A stretch of 64,000 nt of DNA, from positions 2,294,001 to 2,358,000 of the forward strand of contig NZ_CP036402.1 of NCBI RefSeq assembly GCF_004322855.1, given 5' to 3'. Shown here in pieces: positions 6,932-51,200 of the stretch. The notes beneath the pieces were generated by a model. It ran no database searches. It saw nothing but the letters and a program-made list of their open reading frames with translations, and was not told the DNA's origin. The number at the start of each line of letters is the position of its first letter. Position 1 is the stretch's first letter. Source of the DNA: Egibacter rhizosphaerae (GTDB taxonomy: Bacteria; Actinomycetota; Nitriliruptoria; Euzebyales; Egibacteraceae). A program made the translations under genes and the position numbers.

Positions 6932-7102
6932 GAGGGCGCTGACAGCGAGGTCAGCAAGCGGAGATTCTAGCAACAGGCCCACACCGACGCCGTGGACGGC
7001 GGCCGTCCGTACCCCTGGGGACAACGACAAGGCTCGCACCAGCCCCCTGCAACCCCATTAAACTCGGTGCACAACGTCTCCGTGAGAGGACCCCCGTACG
7101 GC

Positions 7103-7897
7103 ATGGGCATCTTGCGCGACTTCGAGCAGCGACTCGAGGGCGCCGTCGAAGGCTTCTTCGCGCGCGCCTTCCGGTCCGGCCTGCAGCCTGTCGAGCTCGC
7201 GAAGGCGGTGCAGCGGTACGCGAGCAACCACCGGCAGGTGGGCGTCGACGGCGTCTTCGTGCCCAACGCGTACCGCGTCCAGCTCGCCCCGACCGACCTC
7301 GAGCGCTTCAGCGGCTACGGCGACACCCTGAAGCACGAGCTCGCTGGCGTGGTGCAGCGCACCGCCCGTGAGCGTGGATGGCAGCTCAAGGGCCCTCCGC
7401 GGGTGGAGCTCGTGCCCGACGAGGCGATCCGGGTCGGCACCTACGAGCTGCGCGGACGTGTGGAGGCTCCCCGGCGCCAGCAGGCATCCGCCCCCCCTCC
7501 ACGGTCCCAGCCACCCTCCCCTGCGCCCTCCGCGTCCGCGGCCCCGGGCAGCAGCGCAGCTGCGGCCACGGTCATGCTCGGCGACAGTCAGCAGGCCACC
7601 CTCGAGATCTCACGACCCGACCACCCACCCGAGACGCGGACGATCGCCGGGGGTTCGGTCATCGGTCGCCTCGCCGAGTGCGATGTCACCATCGAGGATC
7701 CCAGCGTGAGCCGCCGCCACGCACGGATCGACCACGACGGGGCGAGCTGGCGCATCCAGGATCTCGGCTCCACGAACGGCCTCAGCGTCAACGGCCAGCG
7801 GATCGGCGACGGTCCGCTCCAGGACGGCGACGAGGTCAAGCTCGGCAGCGTGCGCCTTCGCTTCCGGGCTGCGGCGGGCGGAGGCTCCGCGCGATGA
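7103..7897 (+). CDS. fhaA: FhaA, DUF3662 plus FHA domain phosphothreonine reader
   Basis: 264 residues from the ATG at 7103-7105. Residues 1 to about 118 are the DUF3662 domain (GILRDFEQRLEGAVEGFFAR, FVPNAYRVQLAP, RGWQLKGPPRVEL). A Pro/Ala/Ser-rich linker follows, then a C-terminal FHA domain with the phosphothreonine-binding signature: GSVIGRLAECDV, SVSRRHARI, DLGSTNGLSVNG. In mycobacteria FhaA binds phosphorylated partners, including MurJ-associated kinase domains and CwlM, and restrains peptidoglycan synthesis at the pole. It is the first gene of a six-gene run that continues to pknB. The tRNA-Leu gene lies divergently upstream. Confidence 0.95.
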   Translation: MGILRDFEQRLEGAVEGFFARAFRSGLQPVELAKAVQRYASNHRQVGVDGVFVPNAYRVQLAPTDLERFSGYGDTLKHELAGVVQRTARERGWQLKGPPRVELVPDEAIRVGTYELRGRVEAPRRQQASAPPPRSQPPSPAPSASAAPGSSAAAATVMLGDSQQATLEISRPDHPPETRTIAGGSVIGRLAECDVTIEDPSVSRRHARIDHDGASWRIQDLGSTNGLSVNGQRIGDGPLQDGDEVKLGSVRLRFRAAAGGGSAR

Positions 7898-7950
7898 CCG
7901 CCCGCGCCGGGTCTCGTATGCCGTTCTCGCCCACGGGGGGAAACTAGCTC

Positions 7951-8493: not shown

Positions 8494-8507
8494 TAGTGAG
8501 GCGGAGG

Positions 8508-9971
8508 ATGCAGATCGAAGCGCACGGCCAGTCCGACATCGGCCAGGTCCGGGCAGGCAACGAGGACGACTATTTCGTCGGCCGCACGGTGTTCGCGGTC
8601 GCCGACGGGATGGGTGGCCACGTCGCCGGCGAGGTCGCGGCCCAGACCGCTCTCGAGCCGATCGCCGCGCTCGACCAGCGAGAGTTCGCCAGCGACGACG
8701 AGGCGGAGGAGGCACTCGCCGAGGCCCTGCAGGAGGCCAATCGGCAGGTCGTCGAGAAGGCCGAGGCCGAGCCCAGCTACCGGGGTATGGGCACGACGCT
8801 GACCGCCGCGCTGTGGCGGGAGGACCGGTTGCACGTCGCGCACGTCGGCGACAGCCGCGCCTACCTCCTCCGCGGTCAGGAGCCCATCACCCAGCTCACC
8901 ACCGACCACACCCTGGTCGAGCGGCTCATCCGCGAGGGGCGCCTGACCCGCGAGGAGGCCGAGACCCATCCCCAGCGCAACGTGATCACCCGCGCGATCG
9001 GCAACGAGGTCGAGGTCATCGTCGACACGCTCCCGCCGCTGCACCTCGAGGACGGCGACCAGATCCTGCTGTGCTCCGACGGACTGACCGGTCCGGTGCA
9101 CGATGCCGAGATCGCCGGCGCCCTCGAGGGCCTCAGCGACGCGCGGGAGGCGGTCGCCACCCTCATCCAGCGCGCCAACGAGGCCGGGGGGCCCGACAAC
9201 ATCACCGTGGTGCTGCTGCGGGCCCACGGGACGCCGGACGGGTCGGCCGCACCGGTGGCCGCGAGTGCCGTGGGCGACACGAGCGATCCCGACGCGACCG
9301 ACACCGGGACCGCTCTCGCGACCCACGGGGTCGACGCCAGCACGGACACCGCGCGGATGCCGGTGCGCCAGATCTCGACGCGCACCGAGTCCGGCAGCGA
9401 CTGGGCCTCGTCCATGGGCCGGCTCGGCGCGCCCCAGGGCCGCGGGCAGCGCGCTACCGGCGACATCGATTCCCGCAAGGCCCGCTCCGGGCGCCGCGGA
9501 CGGGTCGGTGTCGTGGGCGCGTGGATCCTCGGCATCATCGTCCTCGCGGCCGTCATCGGCGGAGGCGCGTGGCTGTTCATCGGCACCTCCTACTTCGTCA
9601 GCGACCACGAGGGCGAGGTGGCGATCTTCCAAGGGGTCGACACCGAGATCGCCGGGCAGCCGTTGTTCCGGGTCGTCGAGGACGAGGACAGCGAGCGGGT
9701 GCCCATGGACGCGTTGCCGGCCTGGCGCCAGCGCGAGGTGGAGGCAGGACTGCACGCCCGCGACCTCGCCGACGCGCGCGACATCCTCGCCAATCTCGAG
9801 ACCGAGCGCGTCGACGGGGACGACGGCGATGACGAGGCCGGGGACGACGCCGACGACGGTGCGGACGACACCCAGGAGGGCGACGACGCGAACGCCGACA
9901 CCCGGCACGTGGTGTTCGGCACCTCGTCGCTCGACGCGACGGCGAGACCGAGCCGCATCGAGCAACCATGA
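8508..9971 (+). CDS. pstP: PstP, membrane PP2C-type Ser/Thr phosphatase
   Basis: 487 residues from ATG 8508-8510; a GTG four codons upstream is possible. The cytoplasmic PP2C domain fills residues 1 to about 235, with the metal-binding motifs GQVRAGNEDDYF, VADGMGGHVAGE, HVGDSRAYL, CSDGLTG and GGPDNITVVLL. A linker leads to a membrane helix (VGVVGAWILGIIVLAAVIGG, near residue 335) and an outer domain of about 130 residues ending in a highly acidic Asp-rich stretch. PstP removes phosphate from PknB and its substrates and so sets the wall-growth signal. The stop codon overlaps the ftsW start (ATGA). Confidence 0.95.
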   Translation: MQIEAHGQSDIGQVRAGNEDDYFVGRTVFAVADGMGGHVAGEVAAQTALEPIAALDQREFASDDEAEEALAEALQEANRQVVEKAEAEPSYRGMGTTLTAALWREDRLHVAHVGDSRAYLLRGQEPITQLTTDHTLVERLIREGRLTREEAETHPQRNVITRAIGNEVEVIVDTLPPLHLEDGDQILLCSDGLTGPVHDAEIAGALEGLSDAREAVATLIQRANEAGGPDNITVVLLRAHGTPDGSAAPVAASAVGDTSDPDATDTGTALATHGVDASTDTARMPVRQISTRTESGSDWASSMGRLGAPQGRGQRATGDIDSRKARSGRRGRVGVVGAWILGIIVLAAVIGGGAWLFIGTSYFVSDHEGEVAIFQGVDTEIAGQPLFRVVEDEDSERVPMDALPAWRQREVEAGLHARDLADARDILANLETERVDGDDGDDEAGDDADDGADDTQEGDDANADTRHVVFGTSSLDATARPSRIEQP

Positions 9972-11608
9972 CCCCCGCGGGTCGCCGCGCGAACACCGAG
10001 CTGGGGCTGCTGCTCATCGCGCTGCTCGTGACCGCGCTCGCGGCGGTGCTCGTCGAGCTCGTCGTGGACCCCGACCTCCCGCCCGGGCGCTTCCTCTACC
10101 TCGCGCCCCTGCCGGTCCTCGCGGCGGGGGTCCACCTGCTGAAGCGCCGCCTCGCCCCCGGTTCCGACCCGGTCCTGATCCCCGTCACGCTTCTGCTGAA
10201 CGGGCTCGGGCTGGTCATGATGCGACGCATCGACCTCGCCGAGCTCGCCCAGGACGCCGACGCTGCGCAGCTCGCGCCGACCCAGGGCGTGTGGACGACG
10301 GTTGCGGTGCTGGCGTTCGCGGGGACGCTCGTCGTGCTGCGCGACTACGGGACCCTCGACGGCTACCGCTACGTGATCGGGCTCGGCGCGGTGGTCCTGC
10401 TGCTCACCCCACTGCTGCCGGGGCTCGGGCAGGAGATCAGCGGCGCGCGGATCTGGCTGCAGATCGGCGGCATGACGATCCAGCCGGTCGAGGTCGCCAA
10501 ACTCGGCTTCGTCGTCTTCTTCGCGAGCTACCTCGCCGAGAAGCGCGACCTCTTGTCGTTCGCCACGAGCCGCCTCGGCCCGCTCATGTCCCCTCCGCCA
10601 CGCGCGTTCGCCCCGCTGCTGATCCTGTGGGCGCTGGGCATGGCGGTACAGGGCTTGCAGAACGACCTCGGCCCGTCGCTGCTGCTGTTCGGCGTCTTCA
10701 TCGTGATGATCTACGTCGCGACCGGGCGTGCGATCTACCCGATCGCGAGCCTGCTCTTGGCGGCCCTCGGCGGTTGGTTCGCCTATACCCAGTTCGCCCA
10801 CGTGTCGTCGCGCGTCGCGATCTGGTTCGACCCGCGCGGCGACGAGTTCGGTGCGGGGCAGCTGCTCGAGTCCCTGTTCGCCTTCGGGACCGGCGGGATC
10901 TTCGGCGTGGGCCTCGGCCAGGGGCAGCCGGACTTCATCCCGGCGGTGCGCACGGACTTCGTGTTCGCCGCGATCGGCGAGGAGATGGGCCTGCTCGGCG
11001 CGACCGCGGTCCTGTTGTGCTTCGTGCTGCTCGCCGGCCGCGGCTTCCGGATCGCGCTGGGCGCCCGCGACGAGTTCGGCACGCTGCTCGCCCTCGGCCT
11101 CACCACGATCTTCGCGCTGCAGGTGTTCATCATCGTCGCTGGGGTGACCCGTCTCATTCCCCTCACCGGGATCACGTTGCCGTTCGTCTCGTACGGCGGC
11201 TCGTCGCTGTTGGCCAACTGGGTGCTGATCGCGCTCCTCGTGCGGGTGAGCGCGCCCATCACCCCGCGCCGCACCCGCGAACGCACCGACGACGAGTTCC
11301 CCGAGGACGCCCAGACCGCCCACGTCCCAGCGGCCGCGTCTGCCGCGGAGGCCGCACCGGCGGGCACTCCGACGCGTGAGCCCGAGGCGGCTGGGGCTGG
11401 CGAGCAGCCGGGCGGAACCGGCGTCGACCAGCCGACCGGCGCCATGGACCCCGTCGACCTGCCCGACCCCGAGGCCAGCGGGAGCCCGGCGGACACGGGG
11501 TCCCCGCCCGGGGCCTCCCATGCGGAGGCCGATGACGGGGAAGAGCCCGGCAGCGAGGACGACGAAGAGGATTGGGGCCCGCCCGATCGGGGTGGGGGCC
11601 GGCGATGA
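9968..11608 (+). CDS. SEDS-family peptidoglycan polymerase (RodA/FtsW)
   Basis: 546 residues with about ten to twelve membrane helices. SEDS signatures are visible: GARIWLQIGGMTIQPVEVAK, the NDLGPSLLLFGVF segment containing the catalytic-type Asp, GEEMGLLGA, and the closing motif ITLPFVSYGGSSLLANW. The last 110 residues form a cytoplasmic tail rich in Ala, Pro, Glu and Asp. The enzyme polymerises lipid II into glycan strands together with the class B PBP encoded immediately downstream; both start/stop junctions overlap by four bases. By gene order it is the RodA of the mycobacterial cluster, but FtsW function cannot be excluded. Confidence 0.95.
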   Translation: MTPAGRRANTELGLLLIALLVTALAAVLVELVVDPDLPPGRFLYLAPLPVLAAGVHLLKRRLAPGSDPVLIPVTLLLNGLGLVMMRRIDLAELAQDADAAQLAPTQGVWTTVAVLAFAGTLVVLRDYGTLDGYRYVIGLGAVVLLLTPLLPGLGQEISGARIWLQIGGMTIQPVEVAKLGFVVFFASYLAEKRDLLSFATSRLGPLMSPPPRAFAPLLILWALGMAVQGLQNDLGPSLLLFGVFIVMIYVATGRAIYPIASLLLAALGGWFAYTQFAHVSSRVAIWFDPRGDEFGAGQLLESLFAFGTGGIFGVGLGQGQPDFIPAVRTDFVFAAIGEEMGLLGATAVLLCFVLLAGRGFRIALGARDEFGTLLALGLTTIFALQVFIIVAGVTRLIPLTGITLPFVSYGGSSLLANWVLIALLVRVSAPITPRRTRERTDDEFPEDAQTAHVPAAASAAEAAPAGTPTREPEAAGAGEQPGGTGVDQPTGAMDPVDLPDPEASGSPADTGSPPGASHAEADDGEEPGSEDDEEDWGPPDRGGGRR

Positions 11609-13092
11609 TGGCCACCCAGATCCGCCGGGTCGCGATCGTGTTCATGGTGCTGTTCGCGGCCGTCTTCGTGAACCTCAACGTCCTGGCGGTCGTCCAGGGC
11701 AGCTCCCTGCGGGAGGACCCGGAGAACACGCGCGGCCTCATCCGCGAGTACGCGGAGCCTCGCGGACTCATGATCGCCGGCGACGGCGAAGAGGCGATCT
11801 CGGTCGCCCGCAGCGAGGAGAGCGAGGGCGGCAGGCTGCGGTACCTGCGCCGGTATCCCGAGGGCGCGGCCTACGCGCACATCACCGGGTACCACTCGTT
11901 CATCTACGGGCGCTCCGAGCTCGAGAGCGCCTATACGGACGAGCTGTCCGGTCGCGGCGCGGACGCGTTCGCCCGCAACCTCGCGGACCTGCTCGCCGGA
12001 CAGGATCCGGTTGGTGACACGCTGCGCCTCGAGATCGAACCCTCGGTACAGGACGCGGCGATCGCCGGGCTCGAGGGGAACACCGGCGCCATCGTCGCGC
12101 TGGAGCCCGATACCGGGGCCGTGCTCGCGCTCGCCAGCTCTCCCTGGTACGACCCGAACCCGCTCGCCAGCCACGACGTCGAGGAAGTCACCAACGCGTG
12201 GGAGGAGTTGGAGGCCGACGAGTCGAACCCCGCGCTCAACCGGGCGGTGCGAGAGACCTACGCGCCGGGCTCCACGTTCAAGCTCGTGACCTCCGCCGCC
12301 GCGCTCGAGAACGGCTACAGCCTCTCGAGCACCTTCGACGATCCCACCGAGCTGGCCCTGCCACAGACCACGGCCACGATCTCGAACTTCGATGGCGGTC
12401 CCTGCGCCGACGGAAGTCAGATCACGCTCGAGGACGCCTTCGCCCAGTCCTGCAACACGACCTTCGGACAGCTGGGCCTCGATCTCGGCGGCGACACGCT
12501 GGTCGACACGGCCGAGGCGTTCGGCGTCGCGGGCGAACTCGACTTCGACCTGCCGGGGGTCGCGCCGAGCGCGTTCCCGCGCGAGGATCTGGACGAGCCG
12601 GGCGCGGCGCAGAGCGCGATCGGCCAACGTGACGTTCGGATGACCCCCTTGCAGATGGCGCTGATCTCGTCGGCCGCGGCGAACGACGGGGAGCTCATGC
12701 AGCCCCGTCTCGTGCGCCACGTCGAGGACGCCTCCGGCCGCGTCGTCGCCTCGCATGACCCCGAGCCCCTGCGGGTCGGCGGTCTCGTGGGCGGGAGCGC
12801 CCACCCGATCTCCTCCCAGACGGCGCGCGGCCTGCGCGCGATGATGGTCGCAGCGGTCGAGGACGGCACCGGCACCTCCGCGCAGATCGAGGGGGTCGAG
12901 GTGGGCGGCAAGACCGGCACGGCCGAGGGGGTGGAGGGCCGCGACCCGATCGCGTGGTTCACCGGCTTCGCCACCTCGGAGGACACCGACGTGGTGGTCG
13001 CGGTGGTGATCACCGACGGCGGTGCCGACGCCAGCGGTGGCACGGTCGCGGCCCCGGTCGCCCGGTCGGTGCTGGAAGCGGCCCTGCCCTAG
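11605..13092 (+). CDS. pbpA: PbpA, class B penicillin-binding protein (transpeptidase)
   Basis: 495 residues; two consecutive ATG codons (11605 and 11608) are possible starts, the first overlapping the ftsW stop. One N-terminal membrane helix (VAIVFMVLFAAVFVNLNVL) anchors an outer dimerisation domain and a transpeptidase domain with the three expected motifs: STFK (APGSTFKLVTS), SCN (AQSCNTTFG) and KTGT (GGKTGTAEG). It cross-links peptidoglycan made by the SEDS partner. In mycobacteria PbpA is itself a PknB substrate. Length is normal and nothing appears broken. Confidence 0.95.
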   Translation: MMATQIRRVAIVFMVLFAAVFVNLNVLAVVQGSSLREDPENTRGLIREYAEPRGLMIAGDGEEAISVARSEESEGGRLRYLRRYPEGAAYAHITGYHSFIYGRSELESAYTDELSGRGADAFARNLADLLAGQDPVGDTLRLEIEPSVQDAAIAGLEGNTGAIVALEPDTGAVLALASSPWYDPNPLASHDVEEVTNAWEELEADESNPALNRAVRETYAPGSTFKLVTSAAALENGYSLSSTFDDPTELALPQTTATISNFDGGPCADGSQITLEDAFAQSCNTTFGQLGLDLGGDTLVDTAEAFGVAGELDFDLPGVAPSAFPREDLDEPGAAQSAIGQRDVRMTPLQMALISSAAANDGELMQPRLVRHVEDASGRVVASHDPEPLRVGGLVGGSAHPISSQTARGLRAMMVAAVEDGTGTSAQIEGVEVGGKTGTAEGVEGRDPIAWFTGFATSEDTDVVVAVVITDGGADASGGTVAAPVARSVLEAALP

Positions 13093-13117
13093 GCGCTCGG
13101 GCACGAGCGAGGAGCAC

Positions 13118-15190
13118 ATGGACGACACGACGCGGGTGGATAGCGGCGGCACCGGCTTGTTGGGTGGCCGCTACGAGGTGCGCGGTCGGCTCGGTCACGG
13201 GGGGATGGCCGACGTCGTGCGCGCGCTCGACACCCAGCTCGACCGCGAGGTCGCCGTCAAGATCCTGCACGCGCGCTACGCCGAGGACCCCTCGTTCCTG
13301 GAACGTTTCCGACGGGAGGCGCAGGCCGCCGCCAGCCTCTCCCACCCGAACGTCGTCGCCGTCTACGACGCGGGGGAGCACGACTCCCGCCCTTTCATCG
13401 TCATGGAACTCGTGGAGGGCGAGAGCCTCTCGGCCATGCTGAACCACGAGCAGCCGTCGCTGGAGCGCGCCCTGCAGATCGGCGGTGACGCGGCCCTCGG
13501 CATCCACTACGCGCACGAGCGCGGCCTCATCCATCGCGACGTGAAGCCCGGCAACATCCTCGTGTCCGAGGACGGGCAGGTGAAGGTGACCGACTTCGGC
13601 ATCGCCCGCGCGGTGAATGCCGAGACCGTCACCCAGACCGCCAGCGTCTTCGGCACTGCCGCCTACATCGCGCCCGAGCAGGCCCAGGGCGGCCACGTCG
13701 ACCGCCGCACCGACGTCTACGCCATGGGCTGCGTGCTCTACGAGTTGCTGACGGGCCGACAGCCCTTCCTGGGCGACAGCGCCGTCTCGCTCGCCTACAT
13801 GCACGTCACCGCCGACCCGCCGTTGCCGTCCGAGGTGGCCCCCCACCTGCCCGAGGCGCTCGACACGGTGCTGCTGACCGCGCTCGCGAAGGACCCTGCC
13901 CAGCGTTACGCCACGGTGCGGGACCTGCACAGCGATCTGCAGCGCGTTGCCGCGGGCCTCCCGGTTGCCGCGATCCCGGAGGGCGGCGCGTGGGACGACG
14001 GCGGCACGACCGTGCTCCCTCCCGGCCCACCGGCGACGTACGAAGCGGAGCCCCCTCCCGACGACCCCCCGCCCCGCCGTGGTCTCGCGACCGCGATGAT
14101 CGTCCTGCTGATCCTCGCGGTCTTCGCGCTCGGGGCGGTGTTGCTCACGAACCTGCTCGCGGGCGGCGAGGACACCGTCATCGTGCCCGATGTGCTCGGC
14201 GAGGATCCCGAGTTCGCCGAGGAGACCCTCGAGAACGCCGGCTTCGAGGTCTCCCGCGAGCCCGACCGGATGACCAGCGAGGAGTACGAGGAGGGGACGG
14301 TTGCCGAGACCGACCCCGCGCCGCTCGACGAGGTAGCCGAGGGCACCGAGGTCATCCTCGTGATCTCCGCCGGGCCGGAGACCGCGGCCGTCCCCGAGAT
14401 CATCGGGGTCGAGGAGGAGGTCGCGGTCGACGCGATCGAGGACGCCGGGTTCACGGTTGGCGAGCGTACCGAGCGCGACGTCGAGGACGCCGAGGAGGGG
14501 GAGGTCGTCGACGCCCGTCCCGAGCCGGGCGAGGAGCACCGGCTCGGGGAGCCGGTCGACTACTGGGTCGCGGTGGGGCCCGATGTCGTCGCGGTCCCGA
14601 TGGTCGTCAACACCCCCGAGGACGAGGCCCGCGAGATGCTCGAGGGGGCCTGCGAGCCCGAGCCGTGCTTCACGGTCGAGGTCGAGTACGAACCCGACAA
14701 CCTCGTCGACGAGGACGACGTCATCCGCCAGAACCCCAGCGGCGGCACCGAGGCCGAGCCCGGCTCGACCGTCGAGATCGTCGTCTCCGAGGGTCCGGAC
14801 ACCGTCGAGCTCCCGGATGTGGAGAACCAGCCCGAGGCCCAGGCGATCGAGCGGCTCGAGGACGCCTGCGACCGCGACCCGTGCGTCGAGGTGGCCGTCA
14901 GCCGTGAGTTCTCGGCCAACACCGCGGAGGGTCGCGTAATCGAGCAGGATCCGCGTCCCAACAACTCGGTCGACATCGGCTCGGAGGTCTCGATCGTCGT
15001 GTCCCGCGGGGCCGAGGAGGAAGAGGACGACACCGAACCGGACGACAACAACGATACCGAACCGGACGACGAACCTGGCACGGATCCCGACGACGGTGAC
15101 GGGGACGACGGGGACGACGGGGACGACGGGGACGACGGGGACAACGAGAACAACGGGGATGGCGACGAGGAGGACGAGGAGGAGGGCTAA
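13118..15190 (+). CDS. pknB: PknB, PASTA-domain receptor Ser/Thr kinase
   Basis: 690 residues from the ATG after GAGGAG. The kinase domain has the glycine loop GHGGMAD, Lys48 in VAVKIL, HRDVKPGN with Asp141, DFG Asp159 and an activation loop ending GTAAYIAPEQ. A membrane helix (MIVLLILAVFALGAVLLTNL) leads to four outer PASTA repeats that should sense muropeptides or lipid II. Repeats 3 and 4 each carry a Cys pair (EGACEPEPC and EDACDRDPC) that may form disulfides. The protein ends in an acidic low-complexity tail of Asp-Gly and Glu. No pknA precedes it, unlike in Mycobacterium. Confidence 0.97.
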   Translation: MDDTTRVDSGGTGLLGGRYEVRGRLGHGGMADVVRALDTQLDREVAVKILHARYAEDPSFLERFRREAQAAASLSHPNVVAVYDAGEHDSRPFIVMELVEGESLSAMLNHEQPSLERALQIGGDAALGIHYAHERGLIHRDVKPGNILVSEDGQVKVTDFGIARAVNAETVTQTASVFGTAAYIAPEQAQGGHVDRRTDVYAMGCVLYELLTGRQPFLGDSAVSLAYMHVTADPPLPSEVAPHLPEALDTVLLTALAKDPAQRYATVRDLHSDLQRVAAGLPVAAIPEGGAWDDGGTTVLPPGPPATYEAEPPPDDPPPRRGLATAMIVLLILAVFALGAVLLTNLLAGGEDTVIVPDVLGEDPEFAEETLENAGFEVSREPDRMTSEEYEEGTVAETDPAPLDEVAEGTEVILVISAGPETAAVPEIIGVEEEVAVDAIEDAGFTVGERTERDVEDAEEGEVVDARPEPGEEHRLGEPVDYWVAVGPDVVAVPMVVNTPEDEAREMLEGACEPEPCFTVEVEYEPDNLVDEDDVIRQNPSGGTEAEPGSTVEIVVSEGPDTVELPDVENQPEAQAIERLEDACDRDPCVEVAVSREFSANTAEGRVIEQDPRPNNSVDIGSEVSIVVSRGAEEEEDDTEPDDNNDTEPDDEPGTDPDDGDGDDGDDGDDGDDGDNENNGDGDEEDEEEG
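15101..15145 (+). repeat. 9-bp tandem repeat encoding the PknB acidic tail
   Basis: The unit GGGGACGAC occurs four times exactly and a fifth time as GGGGACAAC. It encodes a Gly-Asp-Asp repeat at the outer C-terminus of PknB. Replication slippage would change the length in steps of three residues without breaking the frame. Confidence 0.85.
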
Positions 15191-41357: not shown

Positions 41358-42503
41358 TCAGTGGGTGGACGCTCCGACGTGCTCGATGATCGACTCGCCC
41401 GCTGAGGCACCGTAGCCCGACGTCGAGAAGAAGCGCGCGAGGGAGCTGGCCAAGGCGTCGGCCAGGGAGTCCTGCCATTGAGGGTCGACCAGGCGAGCCG
41501 CGTCACGCGGCGACGTCAAGAAGCCCGGCTCGGTGATGACAGCCGGCATGCGCGTCTCGCGCAGGAGGGTCCAGGTGACGGGGTGCACCCGGCAATCGGG
41601 CAGCCATCCGGCGCTGGCGACTCCCGCATGGATGTGCTCGGCCAGACGCCTCCCGGCTTCCGAAGTGGCGTGCAGAGAACCGAAGTAGTAGCTCGCCGTA
41701 CCGGCGGCGCGGGGGTTGTGGTGGGCGTTGACCCCGATTCCGAGGACGACGTCGCTACCCAGTTCGTTGGCGAGACGCGCGCGCTCGCTCGGGGGCGGGT
41801 CCGTGTCCGGTCCGCGGCTCAAGGTGGCCTCGGCGCCGAGCGCGGCCAGGCGCCCGACGAGGCGTGTGGCGACCTCCCAGGTGACGACATGGCCAGGCGC
41901 ACCGTCCGGGCTCGTCGGCCCCGAGTGGCCGACGCCGAACCCCGGATCGACGAGGATACGGGTGCCGGGTAGCCCGCGGCCGGCGAGGCGCCGCAGCGCC
42001 TCACGTTCGCGGACTCGTGTGCTGACACCGGGCGACTGGTGGTCGCGTTGCAAGCGCATGAGGGCTCGGATCGTCGCGTCGCCAGCGACACCGTCGACGG
42101 CCAACCCCGTGTTGCGCTGGAACTCCTCGACGGCGGCGCGCGTCAGCCGCCCGAAGATGGCGTCCTCCGGGCCGGCGTCGAAGCCCAACTGCCCGAGTCG
42201 GCGTTGTAGCTCGAGCACGTCGTCGCCGCGCATCGGTGTGCGCGAGTGCCACAGGAGCCGGTCGCCCAGGGTGTAGCTGGCCTCGACCAGCGCCTCCCAG
42301 GTCTCCTGGCCGATGACGCCGTTCGCGGGCAGGCCGCGTCGCCGCTGGAACGCCCGGACGGCCGCGAGCGTCGCGGCGCCGAAGTGCCCGTCGAGGGGAA
42401 GGGATGGGTCGACGATGCGCGCGAGTCGCTCCTGGACGTCGCGCACGGCGGGCCCTTCGTCACCCGCGACGATGCGGGGCGGGGCCTGCTCGTCCCTGAC
42501 CAT
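41358..42503 (-). CDS. cwlM: CwlM-like protein: two peptidoglycan-binding domains plus degenerate amidase domain
   Basis: 381 residues with no signal peptide, so presumably cytoplasmic. Two PG_binding_1 domains (GPAVRDVQERLARIVDPSLP and ..FQRRRGLPANGVIGQETW.., then LELQRRLGQLGFDAGPEDAI and ..FQRNTGLAVDGVAG..) precede an Amidase_3 fold. In active enzymes the metal His residues lie in DPGHGG and SIHAN. Here these read DPGFGVG and GIGVNA, so both are lost; the Glu in ITEPGFLTS remains. Mycobacterial CwlM in the same position is a PknB substrate that activates MurA and binds MurJ and FhaA. The sequence fits such a regulatory role. Confidence 0.88.
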   Translation of the reverse strand: MVRDEQAPPRIVAGDEGPAVRDVQERLARIVDPSLPLDGHFGAATLAAVRAFQRRRGLPANGVIGQETWEALVEASYTLGDRLLWHSRTPMRGDDVLELQRRLGQLGFDAGPEDAIFGRLTRAAVEEFQRNTGLAVDGVAGDATIRALMRLQRDHQSPGVSTRVREREALRRLAGRGLPGTRILVDPGFGVGHSGPTSPDGAPGHVVTWEVATRLVGRLAALGAEATLSRGPDTDPPPSERARLANELGSDVVLGIGVNAHHNPRAAGTASYYFGSLHATSEAGRRLAEHIHAGVASAGWLPDCRVHPVTWTLLRETRMPAVITEPGFLTSPRDAARLVDPQWQDSLADALASSLARFFSTSGYGASAGESIIEHVGASTH

Positions 42504-42556: not shown

Positions 42557-42880
42557 CTAGCCAACGACCTCGTCCACGTCGGCGAGGAGTTCGTTCTTGC
42601 CCTTCGCACCGACGATGCGCTTGGCCTCCTCGCCCTCCTTGAGGAGCAGAAGCGTCGGGATCGACATGACGCGGTACCGGCGCGCGACGTCAGGGTTCTC
42701 GTCCACGTTCAGCTTGAGGACCTTCAGGTCGTCGCTGCGTTCGCTCGCGATCTCGTCGACGATCGGGCTCACGATGCGGCACGGGCCGCACCATTCCGCC
42801 CAGAAGTCGACGAGGACCGGCTTCTCGGCCCCCTCGACCTCCGCCTTCCACTCCTGGTCCGTCACGGGTTGTGCGCTCAT
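42557..42880 (-). CDS. trxA: Thioredoxin
   Basis: 107 residues with the active site [20 protein letters not shown], the cis-Pro in [13 protein letters not shown] and a normal length. It reduces disulfides in the cytosol and is itself reduced by TrxB encoded upstream on the same strand. A 456-bp spacer with a strong terminator-like hairpin (43078-43113) lies between the two genes, so trxA likely has its own promoter. Confidence 0.97.
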
Positions 42881-43336: not shown

Positions 43337-44278
43337 TCACTGGACGAGCCCGCGGGCCGCGAGCCACCGCTCCACGTCGATCGCCGCCTTACAGCCCATA
43401 CCGGCGGCGGTGACCGCTTGGCGATACGTCTTGTCGACGACGTCACCCGCCGCGAAGACCCCCTCGGCACTGGTGGCGGTCGTCGGCTCGTCGACGAGCA
43501 CGTAGCCCTCCTCGTCGAGCTCGAGCTGGCCCTGCAGCAGCTGCGTGGCGGGGTCGTGGCCTATCGCGAGGAACAGGCCGTCGGTGCGGTGCTCCCACTG
43601 CTCGCCCGTTCGGGTGTCCTCGAGCACGACCCCGGTGACCAACTCCTCGCCGAGCACGTCGGCCACGCGAGTGTTCCACGCGAAGTCGATCTTGTCGTTC
43701 TTGAACGCCCGCTCCTGCATGATCTTCGAGGCCCGCAGCTCGTCCCGGCGGTGTGCCACGACGACCCGGGAGGCGAACTTCGTGAGGAACGTGGCCTCCT
43801 CCATGGCGGAGTCGCCGCCACCGACCACCACGAGCTCACGGTCCCGGAAGAAGAAGCCGTCGCAGGTCGCGCAGCTGGACACGCCCTTGCCGATCAGGCG
43901 CTGCTCGCTCGGGAGCTCGAGCCACCGAGCGCTCGCGCCGGTCGAGACGATCACGGCGTGGGCGCGGATCTCGTCGGTCCCCACCCGGACCACGAACGGC
44001 GACCCGTGCTCGAGGTCCATCGATTGGACGTCCGAGGTGAGCATACGGGCGCCGAAGCGCTCGGCCTGCTTGCGCATGTCGGCCATGAGGGTGGGGCCGA
44101 GGATCCCGTCGGGGAAGCCGGGATAGTTCTCGACGTCCGTGGTCAGCATCAGCTGGCCGCCGGCCTCGCTGCCCTCGATGACGAGCGGCTCGAGCTCCGC
44201 GCGGGCGGCATAGAGCGCGGCGGTGTAGCCCGCCGGCCCGGAGCCGACGATGACGACGTTCTCGATGCGGTCTGTCAT
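43337..44278 (-). CDS. trxB: Thioredoxin-disulfide reductase
   Basis: 313 residues from ATG 44276-44278. FAD-binding [20 protein letters not shown], the redox motif [11 protein letters not shown] (CATC), NADPH-binding [15 protein letters not shown], and the closing FAD motif [20 protein letters not shown] are all intact. It uses NADPH to reduce thioredoxin. In mycobacteria the pair trxB2-trxC lies in the same place between rsmA and cwlM. Confidence 0.97.
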
Positions 44279-44433
44279 GGTACGGGTTCCTTCTGTCTGT
44301 CCCACCATCCGGGGGCGTTCCCGCGATGCAACGCAGCGCCGGGACGTACCCTTCCCGAGATCGGCGCGGGGCGAGTCGGGACCGCCGAGAGTCGGGAGCG
44401 GCAAGCGCGCCCCCGACCGTACACTGCCGAGCG

Positions 44434-44979: not shown

Positions 44980-45996
44980 TCAGGACGTGGGGTCGGTACG
45001 CGCGGTGACCTCGCACCCATCGATGGTCACGAGCAGTGCCACGCGTTCGCCGTCTCCGGTCAATGCGAGCACGGCGATCCCTGGGCTGCCGTCGAGGGTG
45101 CCCTCGGCGATCTCCAGTACCGCGGCGTCGGGCCCGAGCTCGTCCTCGATCGTCCCGGCGCACTCCTCGGCGCCCAGCTCCTCCAGCGCCGCGTGAACCT
45201 CGCGCCATCGAGCGTCGATGGCCGCGGGGTCCGCAGGACCCGTCTGCGGGCCCGCATCGTCCCGGTAGCGCTCGGCGAGCGCCTCCTCGTGGGTCGGGGC
45301 GTCGTCCAGCGGTCCGGCGCTCTCCTGGATGCGTAGAGGGGCCAGCCCGGTCCCGTCATCGGCCGGTGCGTCGTCCGCCGGCGCGTCCGCGTCGGGCTCC
45401 TCCATCGGTTCCACGTCCCGGGACTCGGCGTCGAGCGCGTCCTCGTCGGGCGCGTCCTCGGCGGGCGCGCCCTCGTCGAGTGCCTCCTCGTCGGGCGCCG
45501 CCTCCTCGGCGACATCGGCGTCGTCGGTCGTGGCGTCGTCGGTCGGCCCGATGTTCAACAGGGTGGGCAGAGCGACCGCCGCGAGCGCGATCGCGGCGGC
45601 GATGCCCAGCGGCCCCTTCCACGCACGTCGCGACCGACCCACCGCCGCCGGTGTGACCTCGCCGGCCGAGGCGTCACTGGCCGCCGACGTGTCACCGGTC
45701 GGCGTGGCGATCGCTGCGGCGGATCCCCGTGTCCGGTCCCAGGCCGCGTCCAGGTGGCCGGCGAGGCGCTCGCGGTACCCGGCCGGCGGCGTCACGGCGT
45801 CGATGTCGCGCAGCTCGACGCGCGCCGCGGCGAGCGTGTCGAGGCGACGGGCGATCTCGGGATCCGTTGCGATCCGTGCTTCCAGCCGTGCCACGTCCCG
45901 CTCGTCGAGCTCGCCCTCCAGGTAGGCGGCCAGCTCCTCGTCGCCGGGCCCGTCGGCCTCGGCTCCGGCATGGTGGGGGTCGCGGTGGTCGGTCAT
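44980..45996 (-). CDS. Probable anti-sigma factor (RsmA-like) with acidic outer domain
   Basis: 338 residues from ATG 45994-45996, overlapping the sigma-factor stop (ATGA). The cytoplasmic part has DEELAAYLEGELDERDVARL and IARRLDTLAAARVELRDIDA, a zf-anti-sigma-like helical layout, although clear zinc ligands are not seen. One membrane helix (GPLGIAAAIALAAVALPTLL) follows. An outer Asp/Glu/Ala-rich repetitive segment of about 80 residues and a folded end (ECAGTIEDELGPDAAVLEIA, TIDGCEVTARTD; two Cys) complete it. Position matches rsmA, partner of SigM in mycobacteria. Binding and release are inferred. Confidence 0.82.
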   Translation of the reverse strand: MTDHRDPHHAGAEADGPGDEELAAYLEGELDERDVARLEARIATDPEIARRLDTLAAARVELRDIDAVTPPAGYRERLAGHLDAAWDRTRGSAAAIATPTGDTSAASDASAGEVTPAAVGRSRRAWKGPLGIAAAIALAAVALPTLLNIGPTDDATTDDADVAEEAAPDEEALDEGAPAEDAPDEDALDAESRDVEPMEEPDADAPADDAPADDGTGLAPLRIQESAGPLDDAPTHEEALAERYRDDAGPQTGPADPAAIDARWREVHAALEELGAEECAGTIEDELGPDAAVLEIAEGTLDGSPGIAVLALTGDGERVALLVTIDGCEVTARTDPTS

Positions 45997-46598
45997 CGTC
46001 CCGTTGGAGGTCGGGAATCGGTGGAGGGTTCCACCTCGTCGGCGGATCGGTCGGTCAGAAGCTGCGCGAGCCGTGCGTGCCCACGATGCACGCGTGATTT
46101 CACGGTGCCCACCGCGACGCCCGCACGCTCGGCGATGTCGCGCTGCGGCCATCCGAGCACGTCGTGCAGGACGACGGCCTCGCGCTGCTCGTCGTCCAGC
46201 TCGGCGAGGGCGCGGCGCAGCTCGTCGTTGAGTTCCCGGCGCGACAGCGCGTCCTCGACCTCGGGGTCCGGGCCGGCGTGGCGGTCCTCGAGCGGCACGG
46301 TGGCCGGCCGCCGGCTCCGCTTGCGGGCCAGGTCGTTGCAGACGTTGGTCGCGACGCGGTACAGCCACGTCGAGAACTTGGCCTGGCCGCGGAACGTGTC
46401 CGCGCGGCGCATGACCACGACGAAGGTCTCCTGGGCCGCGTCCTCGGCGTCGTCGGCGTCCCTGAAGTAGCGGTAGCAGATGCCGTAGACGCGATCGGCG
46501 TAGCGGTCGACCAGCTCGTCGAACGCTCCGCGGTCGCCTGCGGTGACACCCGCGACCAGTTCCTCGTCGGTCGCGGCCCTGGGGTCGCCGGCGCCCAT
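45993..46598 (-). CDS. sigM: ECF sigma factor, SigM-like
   Basis: 201 residues from ATG 46596-46598, overlapping the kinase stop by one base. Region 2 (AFDELVDRYADRVYGICYRY, DAEDAAQETFVVVMRRADTF, STWLYRVATNVCNDLARKRS) and region 4 (LDDEQREAVVLHDVLGWPQR, VAVGTVKSRVHRGHARLAQL) are complete. The order kinase-sigma-anti-sigma, all with overlapping ends, makes one transcription unit from murJ downward. The promoter set it controls cannot be seen here. Confidence 0.93.
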   Translation of the reverse strand: MGAGDPRAATDEELVAGVTAGDRGAFDELVDRYADRVYGICYRYFRDADDAEDAAQETFVVVMRRADTFRGQAKFSTWLYRVATNVCNDLARKRSRRPATVPLEDRHAGPDPEVEDALSRRELNDELRRALAELDDEQREAVVLHDVLGWPQRDIAERAGVAVGTVKSRVHRGHARLAQLLTDRSADEVEPSTDSRPPTGR

Positions 46599-48259
46599 CA
46601 GGGGGGCTCCCCCCGGATGTCGAGGACGCTGAAGGCCGCGGCGTACTGCCCGTCGTCGCCGTCGAAGTCCGGTTCCACCAGCGGGGGCACGACGTAGACC
46701 AGCACGTACCGCGCTTCGACGCCGTCGCCCTCGATGACCTCGACGGAGTCGGCGCCGCTGACCTCGTCGAGCGTTTCCCAGTCGTCGACGTCGTCGCTGG
46801 GTTCGTCGGCGACTCGCACCTCGAACGAGATGCCGTCGCTCGGGGTGTGCAGGGTGATCTCCGCGAGCTCGTGCGCCTCCCCGAGGTCCGCGGTGAAGCC
46901 GACACCGGGCTTCTGGCCCTCGAACTCCGCGTCTTCGTACAGCTCGGTGCGCCAGAACGTGGACGCGTCCGCGTCGAGGAGATTCGGCAGCTGCTCGTCC
47001 CGCTCCACGTTGTTGCCACCGGGGTAGTCCTCCACCTCGGGAGGGTCGAAGGCGGTGAGATCGCCGGCCCCGATCTCGACGGGCGTTTCCTCGTCGGCCT
47101 CGTCGTCGCCCTCGACGACCTCCGCCACGAGCCGGGGGATGCGATCGACGTCGACGAGCCCGCTGGCGAGGCCCACGGCCGCCAATGTCGCAACCACCGC
47201 GAGCGAGGCCAGGACCGAGGCGAGCCATGCACCCTCGACACGCCGGAAGCGTCGGGGGCTCGCCTGCGCGTCGGCCGACTCGGCCGTGTCGTTCGTCGTC
47301 GAGGGAGGGGGCACCCCCTCGGGGGGCTCGGCCGGCGGCGAGGCCTCGGTGCTGTCGTCGGAGGACTCGGCGATGCGCTGCGCCCACGGGTGGAACGTCC
47401 ATCCGAGCTCGAGGACCGAGCGGTGCCGGTCGGCCGGGTCGACGGTGAGGGCGGTCGCCAATGCCGCCTCGATGGCCTCCGGGACGTCGGGTCGCAGGGA
47501 TCGTGCCGGCAGCGGGTCCTCCTGGAGCCGCATCGTGGCCGTCTCCATGGTCGAGTTCCCCAAGAAGGGCGGCGTTCCCGTGAGCGCCTCGTAGAGCACG
47601 CACGCGAAGGCGTACTGGTCGGCACGGCCGTCGAGCGGCTCACCCCGGACCTGTTCGGGCGCGATGTAGGTCGCGGTGCCCAGCAGCGTCCCGGTTTGTG
47701 TGAGGTCACGGCTGGACTGCGCGGCCTTGGCGATGCCGAAGTCGGCGACCTTCACGATCCCGTCGGGGGCCCAGAGGATGTTCGCCGGCTTGACGTCCCG
47801 GTGCACCAGTCCGTGCAAGTGCGCGTCGGCCAGGGCCGCCGCGACCTGCTCGGCCAGGCTCGCAACGTCCTCCAGGGGAAGGGGACCCTCCTCGGCCACG
47901 CGCTCCTTGAGGGTCACACCCTCCACGTACTCCATGACGAGGTAGGTCCAGCCCGCGTCGTCCCCGGTGTCGAAGATGGCCACGACCCCGGGGTGCCCGA
48001 GCTTGGCGGCTGCGACCGCCTCGCGTCGGAAGCGCTCGCGGAAGGCGTCGTCTGCCGAGAGGTGTTCGTGGAGGATCTTGACGGCCACCGTGCGCGCCAG
48101 CGTCCGATCGTGGGCCCGCCACACCTCCGCCATGCCGCCCACGGCGATCCGCTCTTCGAGTACGTATCGGCGCGCGAGAACCTGCGGGACCGGCGGCCCC
48201 GACGTGGGGGTCGGCGTCGCTCCCGCTGGCAGCGCTGAGGTTCGATCTTCCTGAGTCAT
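46598..48259 (-). CDS. Membrane Ser/Thr kinase with discoidin-like outer domain, split partner of MurJ
   Basis: 553 residues from ATG 48257-48259 (GTG 48290-48292 is an alternative). The kinase domain keeps every catalytic residue: AVGGMAEVW, Lys61 in VAVKIL, HRDVKPAN with Asp155, DFG with Asp173, and GTATYIAPEQ. A membrane helix (VEGAWLASVLASLAVVATLA) leads to an outer domain with DADASTFWRTELYED and VGFTADLGEAHELAEITLHT, typical of a discoidin/galactose-binding fold. In Mycobacterium these parts are fused to the C-terminus of MviN/MurJ, where the kinase domain is inactive. Here they are separate and appear active. Confidence 0.9.
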   Translation of the reverse strand: MTQEDRTSALPAGATPTPTSGPPVPQVLARRYVLEERIAVGGMAEVWRAHDRTLARTVAVKILHEHLSADDAFRERFRREAVAAAKLGHPGVVAIFDTGDDAGWTYLVMEYVEGVTLKERVAEEGPLPLEDVASLAEQVAAALADAHLHGLVHRDVKPANILWAPDGIVKVADFGIAKAAQSSRDLTQTGTLLGTATYIAPEQVRGEPLDGRADQYAFACVLYEALTGTPPFLGNSTMETATMRLQEDPLPARSLRPDVPEAIEAALATALTVDPADRHRSVLELGWTFHPWAQRIAESSDDSTEASPPAEPPEGVPPPSTTNDTAESADAQASPRRFRRVEGAWLASVLASLAVVATLAAVGLASGLVDVDRIPRLVAEVVEGDDEADEETPVEIGAGDLTAFDPPEVEDYPGGNNVERDEQLPNLLDADASTFWRTELYEDAEFEGQKPGVGFTADLGEAHELAEITLHTPSDGISFEVRVADEPSDDVDDWETLDEVSGADSVEVIEGDGVEARYVLVYVVPPLVEPDFDGDDGQYAAAFSVLDIRGEPP

Positions 48260-48348
48260 CCATGTGGGCCGACGGATCGCGGTGGTCGACACCTGCCGGC
48301 AGTGTAGTCGAGCGTTACCGCCGTCCGGGCGGTGGGGCGTCCGTGACC

Positions 48349-48717
48349 TCAGTCACCGATGTCGGCGGTGGCCGCCCGCTCGGGGGAAGCGAGCGACAGC
48401 AGGGCGTCGATCCGGTGCAGCACGACCGTGTCCGGCGGCCGGCGGACGGTTGCCTCCACCTCGTCGGTGTGGCGCCGGAACCTTGTGACGACGGCGCCGT
48501 TCTCGTCCGCGGTGTCTCGAAGCAGCTCCCGGAGGCTCTCGTCGCTGGTGCCGCCGTCGACGGCGGCCGCGCCCGCCTGCGCGACGGACCGTGCGGTGGT
48601 CTCGGCCTGCATCGTGTTGACGACGACCGCGCCCGTCTCGAACAACAGGAGGCCAACGACGGCGAGCGCCACGATCAGCTTGAGCAGTCCGTCGACGATC
48701 ACGTCGCCGCGTTCCAC
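48349..48717 (-). CDS. Small membrane protein between murJ and the kinase
   Basis: 122 residues from GTG 48715-48717, eight bases after AGGGAGG. One membrane helix (LLKLIVALAVVGLLLFETGA) near the N-terminus is followed by TMQAETTARSVAQAGAAAVD and a soluble tail with no Cys. The layout recalls TadE-like pseudopilins but is not convincing. The start codon lies inside a near-perfect parS palindrome (48711-48724). It sits between murJ and the kinase on the same strand and is probably co-transcribed. Function unknown. Confidence 0.65.
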   Translation of the reverse strand: MERGDVIVDGLLKLIVALAVVGLLLFETGAVVVNTMQAETTARSVAQAGAAAVDGGTSDESLRELLRDTADENGAVVTRFRRHTDEVEATVRRPPDTVVLHRIDALLSLASPERAATADIGD

Positions 48718-48724
48718 GTGGACC
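48711..48724. promoter_or_regulatory. parS-like palindrome with one mismatch over a start codon
   Basis: GTTCCACGTGGACC differs from the perfect parS sites in this window at one position. The GTG start of the small membrane gene lies inside it, so ParB binding, if real, could affect expression of the murJ unit. Confidence 0.35.
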
Positions 48725-48826
48725 ACCTCCCTGACCCGTTGCCGACTCCCGGTCGCGAATCGGCCACCGGTCGGTCCGCAGGCGAGGTATCGGCCCCGAT
48801 GCGGGCGGCCTTGAGCCCGTGGGCGG

Positions 48827-50539
48827 TCAGCCGCGCGCACGCCGCCAGAGCGATCGGAGGGGCAGGGGGTCGTCGATGCGCAGGGTCGCCGCGGCGGCCA
48901 GGTAGGTCACGCCCGTCGTAACGATCGCGAGCGGGGTGCCCACGAGCGCGGGCAGGTCGCCGAGGAGCAGCACGGCGGCGACGGCGACGACGCCCGCGAC
49001 CGCCACCGCTGCCCAGGTGCGGGCCAGGCGCCCCCCACCGACCCGCACGTGGACACCGAGACGGCGGCGGACGGCGCGCCGCAGCAACCCGAACTCGAGC
49101 CACGCCGAGACGCCCGCGGCGATCGCGAGGCCGAGCGCGCCGAGGCGCGGCAGCGCGGGATCCTCGCGCAGACCGGCGTCGAGGGGGCCCAGAGCGGGCA
49201 GCTCACCCACGAGCGCGAGGTCGCCGTCGGGCATCAAGGCCACCCGGTCGAACTGGAGCATGAGCACCGCGCCGAGCGTGGCGGCGAGGAGCATCCGGAG
49301 CGCGGCATAGACCGCGGGCCGCCGTGTATCCCCGGCCGCGTAGAGCGTGTTCTGGAGGAGGCGCGACGACGTCGTCGCGAGCAGACCGACGCAGAACCCG
49401 ATGAGGATGAACCACACGAGCCGTGTGTCGCTCGCGTCGAACGCGAGCCGCTCGTAGAGCAACCTGATGATGAACTCGCCGAGCACGACGAACCCGAGGA
49501 TGCTCGGAGCGACGAAGAACGCGATCCGCGCGAGTCCGTCGCGCAGGCGCGTGGCCAGTGCATCCCGTGCCGCCTGCGTGTCGGCGTCGGCCGCGGCGCG
49601 CCCACGGGCGAGTTCGGGCAGCTCCGCGGCCGCGACGCTCATGCCGAACAACGCGATGGGGAGCATGTAGAGCGGTTGTGCGAGCATCATGGCCGAGACG
49701 GCGCCGGTGGCGAGCAGGGTGGCGAGTGCGAGCTCCACGTAGGTCATCAGCTGGACCACCCCGCGGCCGGCCACGATCGGCCCGAAGGCGCGAATCGCTT
49801 GCCGCACCGGGGGGAACCCCAGGTCGAGGCTGGGGCGTGGGATCCCGCCGAGCAGGCGGACGACCCGGGGGAGCTGCACGGCCAGCTGCGCGGCGCTGCC
49901 GACCAGGACGCCCCACGCGAGCGCCTGTGCGATGTTGGCGAGCCCGAGGCCGGCCAGACCGGCCGCTACGACCGCAGCGATCTGGGCGGCGCTCCAGAGC
50001 ACCGGCGCGACGTAGGAGAGGAAGAAGCGCCGGTGGCTGTTGAGGATCCCGAGGCACCACGCGGAGAGGACGAGCAGGCCGATCCCCGGGAACAGGATCC
50101 GCATGAACGTCACCGTGAGGTCGAACTGTGGGGTCCCGATCCACCCGAACGCGATGAGGCGCGCCAGGGGCTCGGCCAGCAACAGGCCGATGAGGGCGAA
50201 GCCCCCGGTCAGGAGCGCGAGGAGCGTGCCGACGACCCGCGCCATGTGAGCCGCGTCGCGCTCGCGCCCCTCGGCGAGCAGCTGGCTGAAACCCGGGATG
50301 AACGACGCCGAGAGGACGCCTTCTCCGAGCAGGTTCTGCAGGAGGTTCGGGATACGGAAGGCCGCTCGGAACGCGTCGGCCTGGGGCCCGGTGCCCAGGA
50401 ACGACGCCACCGCGGCCTCACGGGCGAGACCCGCGATGCGGGAGAGCCCGATCCCCGCGGCGACGAGGTAGGAACTGCGTTGGGAGGAGCCCTCGCGGGC
50501 GGGGTCACCGCCCTCCGGATCGGGCGCTGGATCGCTCAT
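48827..50539 (-). CDS. murJ: Lipid II flippase MurJ
   Basis: 570 residues from ATG 50537-50539. A MATE/MOP-fold transporter with about 14 helices: GIGLSRIAGLAREAAVASFL at the start of the first helix with the conserved Arg, AFRIPNLLQNLLGEGVLSAS, PGFSQLLAEGRERDAAHMAR, FLSYVAPVLWSAAQIAAVVA and LLQNTLYAAGDTRRPAVYAA. It moves lipid II across the membrane for the RodA and PonA enzymes encoded in this window. The protein ends after the membrane domain; the kinase-like C-terminus of the mycobacterial protein is encoded separately downstream. Confidence 0.96.
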   Translation of the reverse strand: MSDPAPDPEGGDPAREGSSQRSSYLVAAGIGLSRIAGLAREAAVASFLGTGPQADAFRAAFRIPNLLQNLLGEGVLSASFIPGFSQLLAEGRERDAAHMARVVGTLLALLTGGFALIGLLLAEPLARLIAFGWIGTPQFDLTVTFMRILFPGIGLLVLSAWCLGILNSHRRFFLSYVAPVLWSAAQIAAVVAAGLAGLGLANIAQALAWGVLVGSAAQLAVQLPRVVRLLGGIPRPSLDLGFPPVRQAIRAFGPIVAGRGVVQLMTYVELALATLLATGAVSAMMLAQPLYMLPIALFGMSVAAAELPELARGRAAADADTQAARDALATRLRDGLARIAFFVAPSILGFVVLGEFIIRLLYERLAFDASDTRLVWFILIGFCVGLLATTSSRLLQNTLYAAGDTRRPAVYAALRMLLAATLGAVLMLQFDRVALMPDGDLALVGELPALGPLDAGLREDPALPRLGALGLAIAAGVSAWLEFGLLRRAVRRRLGVHVRVGGGRLARTWAAVAVAGVVAVAAVLLLGDLPALVGTPLAIVTTGVTYLAAAATLRIDDPLPLRSLWRRARG

Positions 50540-50582: not shown

Positions 50583-51038
50583 TCACGTAGCGTCGGCGCG
50601 GCCGTGCTCCGGGACGGCCTTGCGGACGAGGTCCCGCTCGTTCGGGTGCGCCATGCACGCGAGCGCGTCGTCGATGGGCAGCCACCGCACCTCCTCGGCC
50701 TCGTCGTCGCGCGCGCTCGGGTCCCCACCCACCGCAGCCATGCGGTAGTAGTGCACGAACTTGTGGTACCGCACACGGTCGTCGCGCCAGACGAACCAGT
50801 AGTCGATGACGCCGAGCTTCTCCTCGATACGGCACTCGATGCCGGTCTCCTCGGCGACCTCGCGCAGCGCAGCCGTCTCGTGGTCCTCGTCGGGTTCGAG
50901 GCCGCCCTTCGGCAGCGTCCACTGCAACTCGCCAGCGGCGTTCCGGCGGGCGATCAGCAACACCCACCAGCCATCGGCACGTGGGTCCACGACGATCCCG
51001 CCGGCGGACACCGCACGCTTGGTGGGATAGCGGGGCAT
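50583..51038 (-). CDS. Nudix hydrolase
   Basis: 151 residues from ATG 51036-51038. The Nudix box is perfect: GGLEPDEDHETAALREVAEE followed by TGI, where the Glu residues bind the metal. The N-terminus KRAVSAGGIVVDPRADGWWV and the segment YWFVWRDDRVRYHKFVHYYR suit a MutT-like or dinucleotide-polyphosphate hydrolase. Starts at 51050 or 51086 are also open. In mycobacteria a Nudix gene (mutT4) lies at the same place between pcnA and murJ. Substrate undetermined. Confidence 0.93.
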   Translation of the reverse strand: MPRYPTKRAVSAGGIVVDPRADGWWVLLIARRNAAGELQWTLPKGGLEPDEDHETAALREVAEETGIECRIEEKLGVIDYWFVWRDDRVRYHKFVHYYRMAAVGGDPSARDDEAEEVRWLPIDDALACMAHPNERDLVRKAVPEHGRADAT

Positions 51039-51200
51039 GCCGCGGAGCATAGACGGTCGAGCCCGTTCTCGGCTCGGTGCGGTCACCGTTGACGAGTCAA
51101 GTCGGGCCGCCGAGACGCCGAGGGAGGTGATGAGGGCCCTTACGGGTGGAGCGGCGCGCGCGGACGGTCACAGGCGCGTGCCCGATCGCAGGAGGCTGCA

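Follow-up and report, generated by a model that had tools for sequence, protein, structure and literature searches.

The 64,000-nucleotide stretch of the Egibacter rhizosphaerae genome analysed here (hereafter the window) holds, in a single minus-strand run, the genes for a MurJ flippase, a small membrane protein, a membrane Ser/Thr kinase, a SigM-like sigma factor and a probable anti-sigma factor. To our knowledge, kinase-fold control of MurJ has been studied best in mycobacteria, where a dead domain is joined to the flippase in one protein, MviN. We lean towards the view that the window kinase is an active-competent, unfused counterpart of the kinase and outer-domain module of MviN, and that it would serve as a sensor kinase in the control of SigM and MurJ, and possibly of FhaA. 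The arrangement itself is real, well conserved and partly known.

The preliminary description of this DNA listed murJ, the small membrane protein and the kinase as separate genes, and gave the kinase a full catalytic set and a discoidin-like outer domain. Pfam matches and open reading frames confirm the separate genes, and the catalytic residues are indeed all there. The kinase gene (46598..48259, minus strand; Pkinase, 155 bits) has its longest open reading frame from a GTG at 48292, and a Met that hardly varies among relatives makes the ATG at 48259 the more probable start. Its kinase domain (47426..48166, minus strand) keeps K72, E91, the HRD motif at 164–166 with D166, N171 and the DFG motif at 184–186 with D184 (numbering of the 564-residue protein), which is the residue set of a Hanks-type Ser/Thr kinase, and both Thr residues of the activation-loop LTxTG stretch are retained in all 12 aligned proteins of the window's class, the Nitriliruptoria. 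The protein thus appears catalytically intact and would be expected to have enzyme activity. The loss of canonical motifs that marks the ActPs3/MviN pseudokinases is not found, nor is the fusion to the C-terminus of MurJ that marks the MviN form, the kinase being encoded apart from murJ. We also considered a conserved FHA docking site between the kinase domain and the membrane, and rejected it, as this stretch is variable except for an FxRSEGxW-like motif just before the helix.

The discoidin-like outer domain of the preliminary description is likewise borne out. After a transmembrane helix at residues 347–376 (47165..47254, minus strand), the protein carries an outer domain (46610..47107, minus strand) of the CBM32/F5-8C type, assigned through the structure model of a relative, L170 (loci and their proteins are cited by L numbers, family codes by f numbers), and through a profile match. 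The L170 outer domain is predicted as a CBM32/discoidin sandwich with a predicted local distance difference test score (pLDDT) of 95.4, and compares with CBM32 modules at a best Z of 17.0 over 121 residues and 2.0 Å; the sequence profile of the domain also matches discoidin domains that bind chitosan (E 4e-5). The model of the window protein, at lower confidence (pLDDT 71.4), has the helix at 347–376 and a strand order similar to that of L170. As a single query, the window outer domain matched four of five fused MviN-like proteins (E 9e-8, 5e-6, 4.5e-4 and 1.4e-3), and an iterated profile, which had absorbed some of the five fused proteins that it then matched, covered all five (8e-37 to 1e-28). 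Judged by these sequence matches, the outer domain of the window kinase and the C-terminal domain in MviN fusions are homologous; the window domain probably senses a sugar of the cell wall or envelope. With a 29-row profile, the domain was found in 210 of 396 Actinomycetota genomes.

The surroundings of the kinase point the same way, since the order NUDIX, murJ, kinase, sigM, trxB, trxA, cwlM is common to the window and to fused-MviN loci. Mycobacterium MviN (ActPs3; PDB 3OTV, 3UQC and 3OUN) resembles the window proteins in joining a kinase fold, a helix and the homologous outer domain beside MurJ, SigM, TrxB, TrxA and CwlM, whereas in the window the kinase is a separate gene with an intact catalytic set, the MurJ is of another lineage and a small TadE-like gene lies between the two. 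It is mainly this common place, together with gene order and outer domain, that argues for kinship with the MviN kinase. In the available text of PMC12599244, MviN is included among the ActPs3 pseudokinases, is phosphorylated by PknB and is bound by FhaA; 3UQC and 3OUN are named as MviN there and in the available text of PMC10166564.

How activity and fusion are distributed can be read from a survey of proteins with this outer domain, which gave 120 rows, reduced to 116 by the removal of four duplicates and to 112 counted rows by dropping L263, L286, L312 and L314 (truncated or misread frames). Five catalytic columns were read, and a kinase was scored as active if Lys, the HRD Asp, Asn and the DFG Asp were all present. 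On this scoring 76 of the 112 usable relatives look active and 36 are dead. Each of the eight fused proteins is dead, and all come from one family code, f28; in the MurJ tree fusion is a single change (support 99). L258 (f75) is unfused, dead in the same way as the fused proteins and their sister in the MurJ tree (100), and because of this position catalysis was probably lost before fusion. The most economical order suggested by these data runs from separate and active, through separate and dead (L258), to fused and dead, with the active, separate form as the presumably older state.

Loss of activity is not confined to the fused lineage. Active kinases adjoin MurJ in f1, f2, f3, f5, f43, f63, f70 and a named Acidimicrobiales contig, and dead ones in f2, f10, f11, f13, f16, f22, f28, f33, f37, f43, f57, f69 and f75; the kinase tree, built from 80 of the 116 rows and 20 canonical kinases with rows hand-picked for spread, requires at least five changes of activity. 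Some losses look recent: the f16 kinases (L135, L136) have lost the catalytic Asp and retain Lys and the DFG Asp, L101 has lost the catalytic Asp though other members of its family are active, and L271 and L272, both of f43, differ at the catalytic Asp. When ten dead, unfused kinases from outside f28 were made into a profile, its top matches were 3otv, 3uqc and 3oun (E 3.9e-37, 132 bits), followed by PknB (121 bits). Among 130 MurJ places in 37 family codes, a census slightly biased because a few loci had been fetched for their kinase, a kinase of this family adjoins MurJ or is fused to it in 36; the association of MurJ with the kinase is more than chance.

The preliminary description would be contradicted by a tree that sets the kinase apart from the MviN kinase domains, and no such tree was obtained. 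In constrained tests on 27 locus kinases, 7 paralogues and 9 canonical kinases, also hand-picked for spread, a tree in which the 27 were held as one clade was not rejected (p-AU 0.684 in the approximately unbiased (AU) test), and it was 13 log units better than a short free search. Several results, however, count against the kinship of the window module with MviN. Rival groupings were not rejected either, whether the window's class was left out (p 0.86) or joined to the MviN side alone (0.739), and for this reason the tree gives no proof of kinship; a longer search leaves the deep kinase backbone without resolution. In f28, the family code of the fusions, two active kinases (L255 and L256) bear the MviN-type outer domain, and their kinase domains group with canonical kinases in the tree; because the domain can thus move between kinases, a shared outer domain was discarded as proof of descent by itself, and the tree made from the outer domain alone has an unresolved backbone. 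MviN was absent from the best 60 matches of a profile of six dead kinases (f10, f13 and f11), which would fit separate losses of activity. Finally, the flippase itself resists being placed with MviN: forcing the MurJ of the window's class into the kinase-linked part of the MviN group costs 58 log units (AU p 0.0026), and forcing it to the MviN side costs 71 (AU p 0.0015).

The window murJ (48827..50539, minus strand, from ATG 50539) is a lipid II flippase family member of a class-specific lineage that we call 'N', with a Pfam MurJ match of 259 bits and a match of 286 bits to NCBIfam TIGR01695, murJ_mviN (cut-off 235.6). We built MurJ trees from 149 sequences, with a careful tree of 44 of the 149, hand-picked for spread. 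In both trees the MurJ of the window's class forms one group (100/100) that lies outside the group of MviN (100/100), so that the window flippase is not of the MviN type; the MviN group also holds Streptomyces-like MurJs and those of f5, f10, f13, f16 and f43. This suggests that the flippase beside the window kinase and its mycobacterial counterpart belong to different lineages. The window flippase could instead be a fast-evolving orthologue of the MurJ in MviN that the trees misplace, with no exchange of flippase at all. The branch to the class MurJ is long (1.29 changes per column), which would fit fast evolution, and the gene stands at the canonical position, but the full support and the AU rejections speak against misplacement, as does plain similarity, the window MurJ being nearer to lineage A (median 135 bits) than to lineage B, which contains MviN (82 bits). 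We consider misplacement rather doubtful. It would affect the reading of MurJ alone; the window kinase could still be the counterpart of the MviN module.

Where the neighbourhood is known, MurJ lies beside the kinase at 13 of the 24 loci of the window's class and is missing beside it at the other 11. This suggests that the flippase at this place is exchangeable, with the kinase and sigM as the stable core. The preliminary description had further proposed that the window arrangement may be the ancestral form, before fusion and loss of activity. That proposal holds in so far as the most economical order begins with an active, separate kinase, but not for this pair as such, given a MurJ lineage that excludes the MurJ of MviN and the 11 class loci without one; the pair is not simply the ancestor of MviN, because the class MurJ lies outside the MviN clade and many active relatives have sigM without MurJ. 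As separate observations, in two genomes of the window's own family, those of L099 (G163) and L104 (G203), the sole MurJ is of the B type and distant from the kinase locus, and in L114 and L240, where MurJ is missing, a DUF6049 protein lies between NUDIX and the small gene.

The kinase may serve the sigma factor, passing an envelope signal to SigM through a phosphorylated anti-sigma factor or through SigM itself, with MurJ as a passenger. The window sigM-like gene for an extracytoplasmic function (ECF) sigma factor (45993..46598, minus strand; top NCBIfam model SigM, 160.9 bits, under the cut-off of 190) begins with an ATG that shares one base, at 46598, with the kinase stop, and the two are probably coupled in translation. 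The preliminary placing of sigM in the run is borne out; the anti-sigma gene named with it (44980..45888, minus strand, start not fixed) is probable, from a weak NF052375 match (E 2.6e-4). Among active rows with a known neighbourhood, sigM directly follows the kinase in 51 of 73, while MurJ precedes it in 20 of 67 and is not beside it in the other 47; among locus rows in the tree alone, 36 of 38 active rows have sigM. Many contigs named Acidimicrobiia have an active kinase, sigM and trxB with no MurJ nearby. There are known cases of Hanks kinases with an ECF sigma factor as target (PMC13147305, available text).

On the other side, MurJ is retained in 33 of the 36 rows with a dead kinase and sigM in 25, and in L103 and L118 (f1) an active kinase adjoins MurJ with no sigM detected between kinase and trxB. 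The combination of dead kinase with MurJ was tried as a statistical law; a Fisher test gave p 1.2e-6 over 77 rows, yet there are only 3 independent pairs on starred branches, which is not significant. The ECF43 pairs (PknT-EcfP, PknS-EcfK) are similar in that a transmembrane Hanks kinase gene adjoins an ECF sigma gene, and ECF43 sigma factors have uncharged and phosphorylatable residues in place of acidic region 2.2 (PMC13147305, available text). The window sigma factor, in contrast, retains acidic region 2.2 (DADDAEDAAQE) and has a probable anti-sigma factor; ECF43-type control was discarded on account of the retained region, which also makes direct ECF43-like activation of SigM unlikely. We think it unlikely overall that the kinase works for the sigma factor with MurJ as a mere passenger.

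A reading that takes in both partners, which we offer tentatively, is that the module is a portable controller, paired at the same place with two non-orthologous MurJ lineages and using catalysis for SigM signalling and its scaffold for the flippase. Loss of MurJ would then leave an active kinase by sigM, and loss of catalysis a protein that stays beside MurJ or within it. If so, the fact that the module was paired anew with another flippase would point, on evolutionary grounds, to MurJ itself as its target. From the pattern of active kinase with sigM and dead kinase with MurJ, concrete predictions follow for this class of Actinomycetota, which has received little study, and for lineages with dead forms.

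That the window kinase is an ordinary PknB-like kinase beside murJ, with a likeness to MviN that goes no further than the common kinase fold and a sugar-binding domain able to move between proteins, is improbable: PknB is of the same kinase class, has one membrane helix and is the best PDB sequence match, PknB_PASTA is the best NCBIfam model (362 bits, under its cut-off) and the outer domain does shuffle between kinases, but the window kinase has a CBM32-fold outer domain and no Pfam match to the PASTA repeats of PknB/Stk1, lies at another locus than the PASTA-bearing PknB that the window also encodes, occupies an identical place in the gene run across many family codes, fits the order from active to dead to fused, and belongs to a set of locus kinases for which a single clade is not rejected.

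If the window kinase is indeed the active-competent counterpart of the MviN module, its cytoplasmic Ser/Thr kinase domain, single membrane helix and outer CBM32-fold domain would allow it to sense a wall or envelope sugar. The kinase would most likely autophosphorylate in the activation loop and might then target the products of its own run, that is, the SigM/anti-sigma pair and MurJ or its partners, with FhaA as a possible further target. In several lineages catalysis would have been lost while fold, helix and outer domain stayed as a scaffold adjoining MurJ, and in one family code this scaffold would have been fused to MurJ as MviN, for PknB to phosphorylate and FhaA to bind. We counted in favour of this reading that the window also encodes FhaA (6992..7897, plus strand; FhaA_N and FHA by Pfam), a possible partner, and PknB with PASTA repeats (13022..15190, plus strand; Pfam), a possible upstream kinase. 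An active, separable version of the module raises the questions of what the original job of the enzyme was, what signal the outer domain reads and whether the function survived the change to a scaffold.

Part of this arrangement is already in print, in that the available text of PMC10166564, in its S6 legend, reports a 'protein kinase family protein' as frequent downstream of unfused mviN in Actinobacteria. The unfused kinase of that legend is like the window kinase in being a separate gene downstream of mviN, and the legend text does not state its activity state, outer domain or ancestry. According to the available text of the same paper, the pseudokinase extension of MviN occurs only in organisms with an arabinogalactan layer. 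In a search that covered mainly journals open without subscription, we found no published account of an active MurJ-linked kinase, of two lineages of MurJ or of the outer domain in unfused relatives. Two points are thus without a published account that we found: the loss of activity before fusion, and a different MurJ beside the same kinase.

The window genome, a single contig of 4.64 Mb, encodes a single MurJ and gives eleven kinase-domain matches. It also has, at a distance from murJ and sigM, another kinase that looks active and shares the outer domain of the window kinase (L236, about 4219600–4221550 of the genome). Similarly, in family code f28, a dead kinase (L257) elsewhere in the genome bears the MviN-type outer domain in addition to L255 and L256. 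L298, L309 and L357 lie on contigs titled as a Bifidobacterium breve metagenome-assembled genome and have Acidimicrobiia-type kinases, that of L298 falling among Acidimicrobiia kinases in the tree; these contigs are probably mistitled.

The remaining genes of the conserved run all lie on the minus strand. A NUDIX gene (50583..51086; Pfam, 90.8 bits) forms the upstream edge. Downstream of the anti-sigma gene are homologues of trxB (43337..44404, start uncertain) and trxA (42557..42880), recognized by their place in the run; these two names follow the mycobacterial gene order. They are followed by a CwlM-like amidase with two PG_binding_1 stretches and an Amidase_3 domain by Pfam (41358..42503). 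On the plus strand, fhaA, a second FHA gene, rodA, pbpA and pknB occupy 6992–15190, in the same 64 kb window as the murJ run.

The small one-helix membrane protein between MurJ and the kinase (48349..48717, minus strand) probably starts at GTG 48717, as judged by comparison with relatives, and its open frame extends to 48840. It is weakly TadE-like: the match to TIGR03816 has an E of 3.5e-5, under the cut-off, and Tad/TadE matches were found in 9 and 6 of its 33 relatives. A sequence search of the PDB gave nothing better than E 0.18. A relative directly follows MurJ at 30 of the 130 MurJ places, in 11 of the 37 family codes, and 15 of these 30 places have no kinase; the small protein may be a general MurJ partner. 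The same small protein (window 48349–48840) also occurs at L150, L153, L156, L157, L162, L167, L171 and L175.

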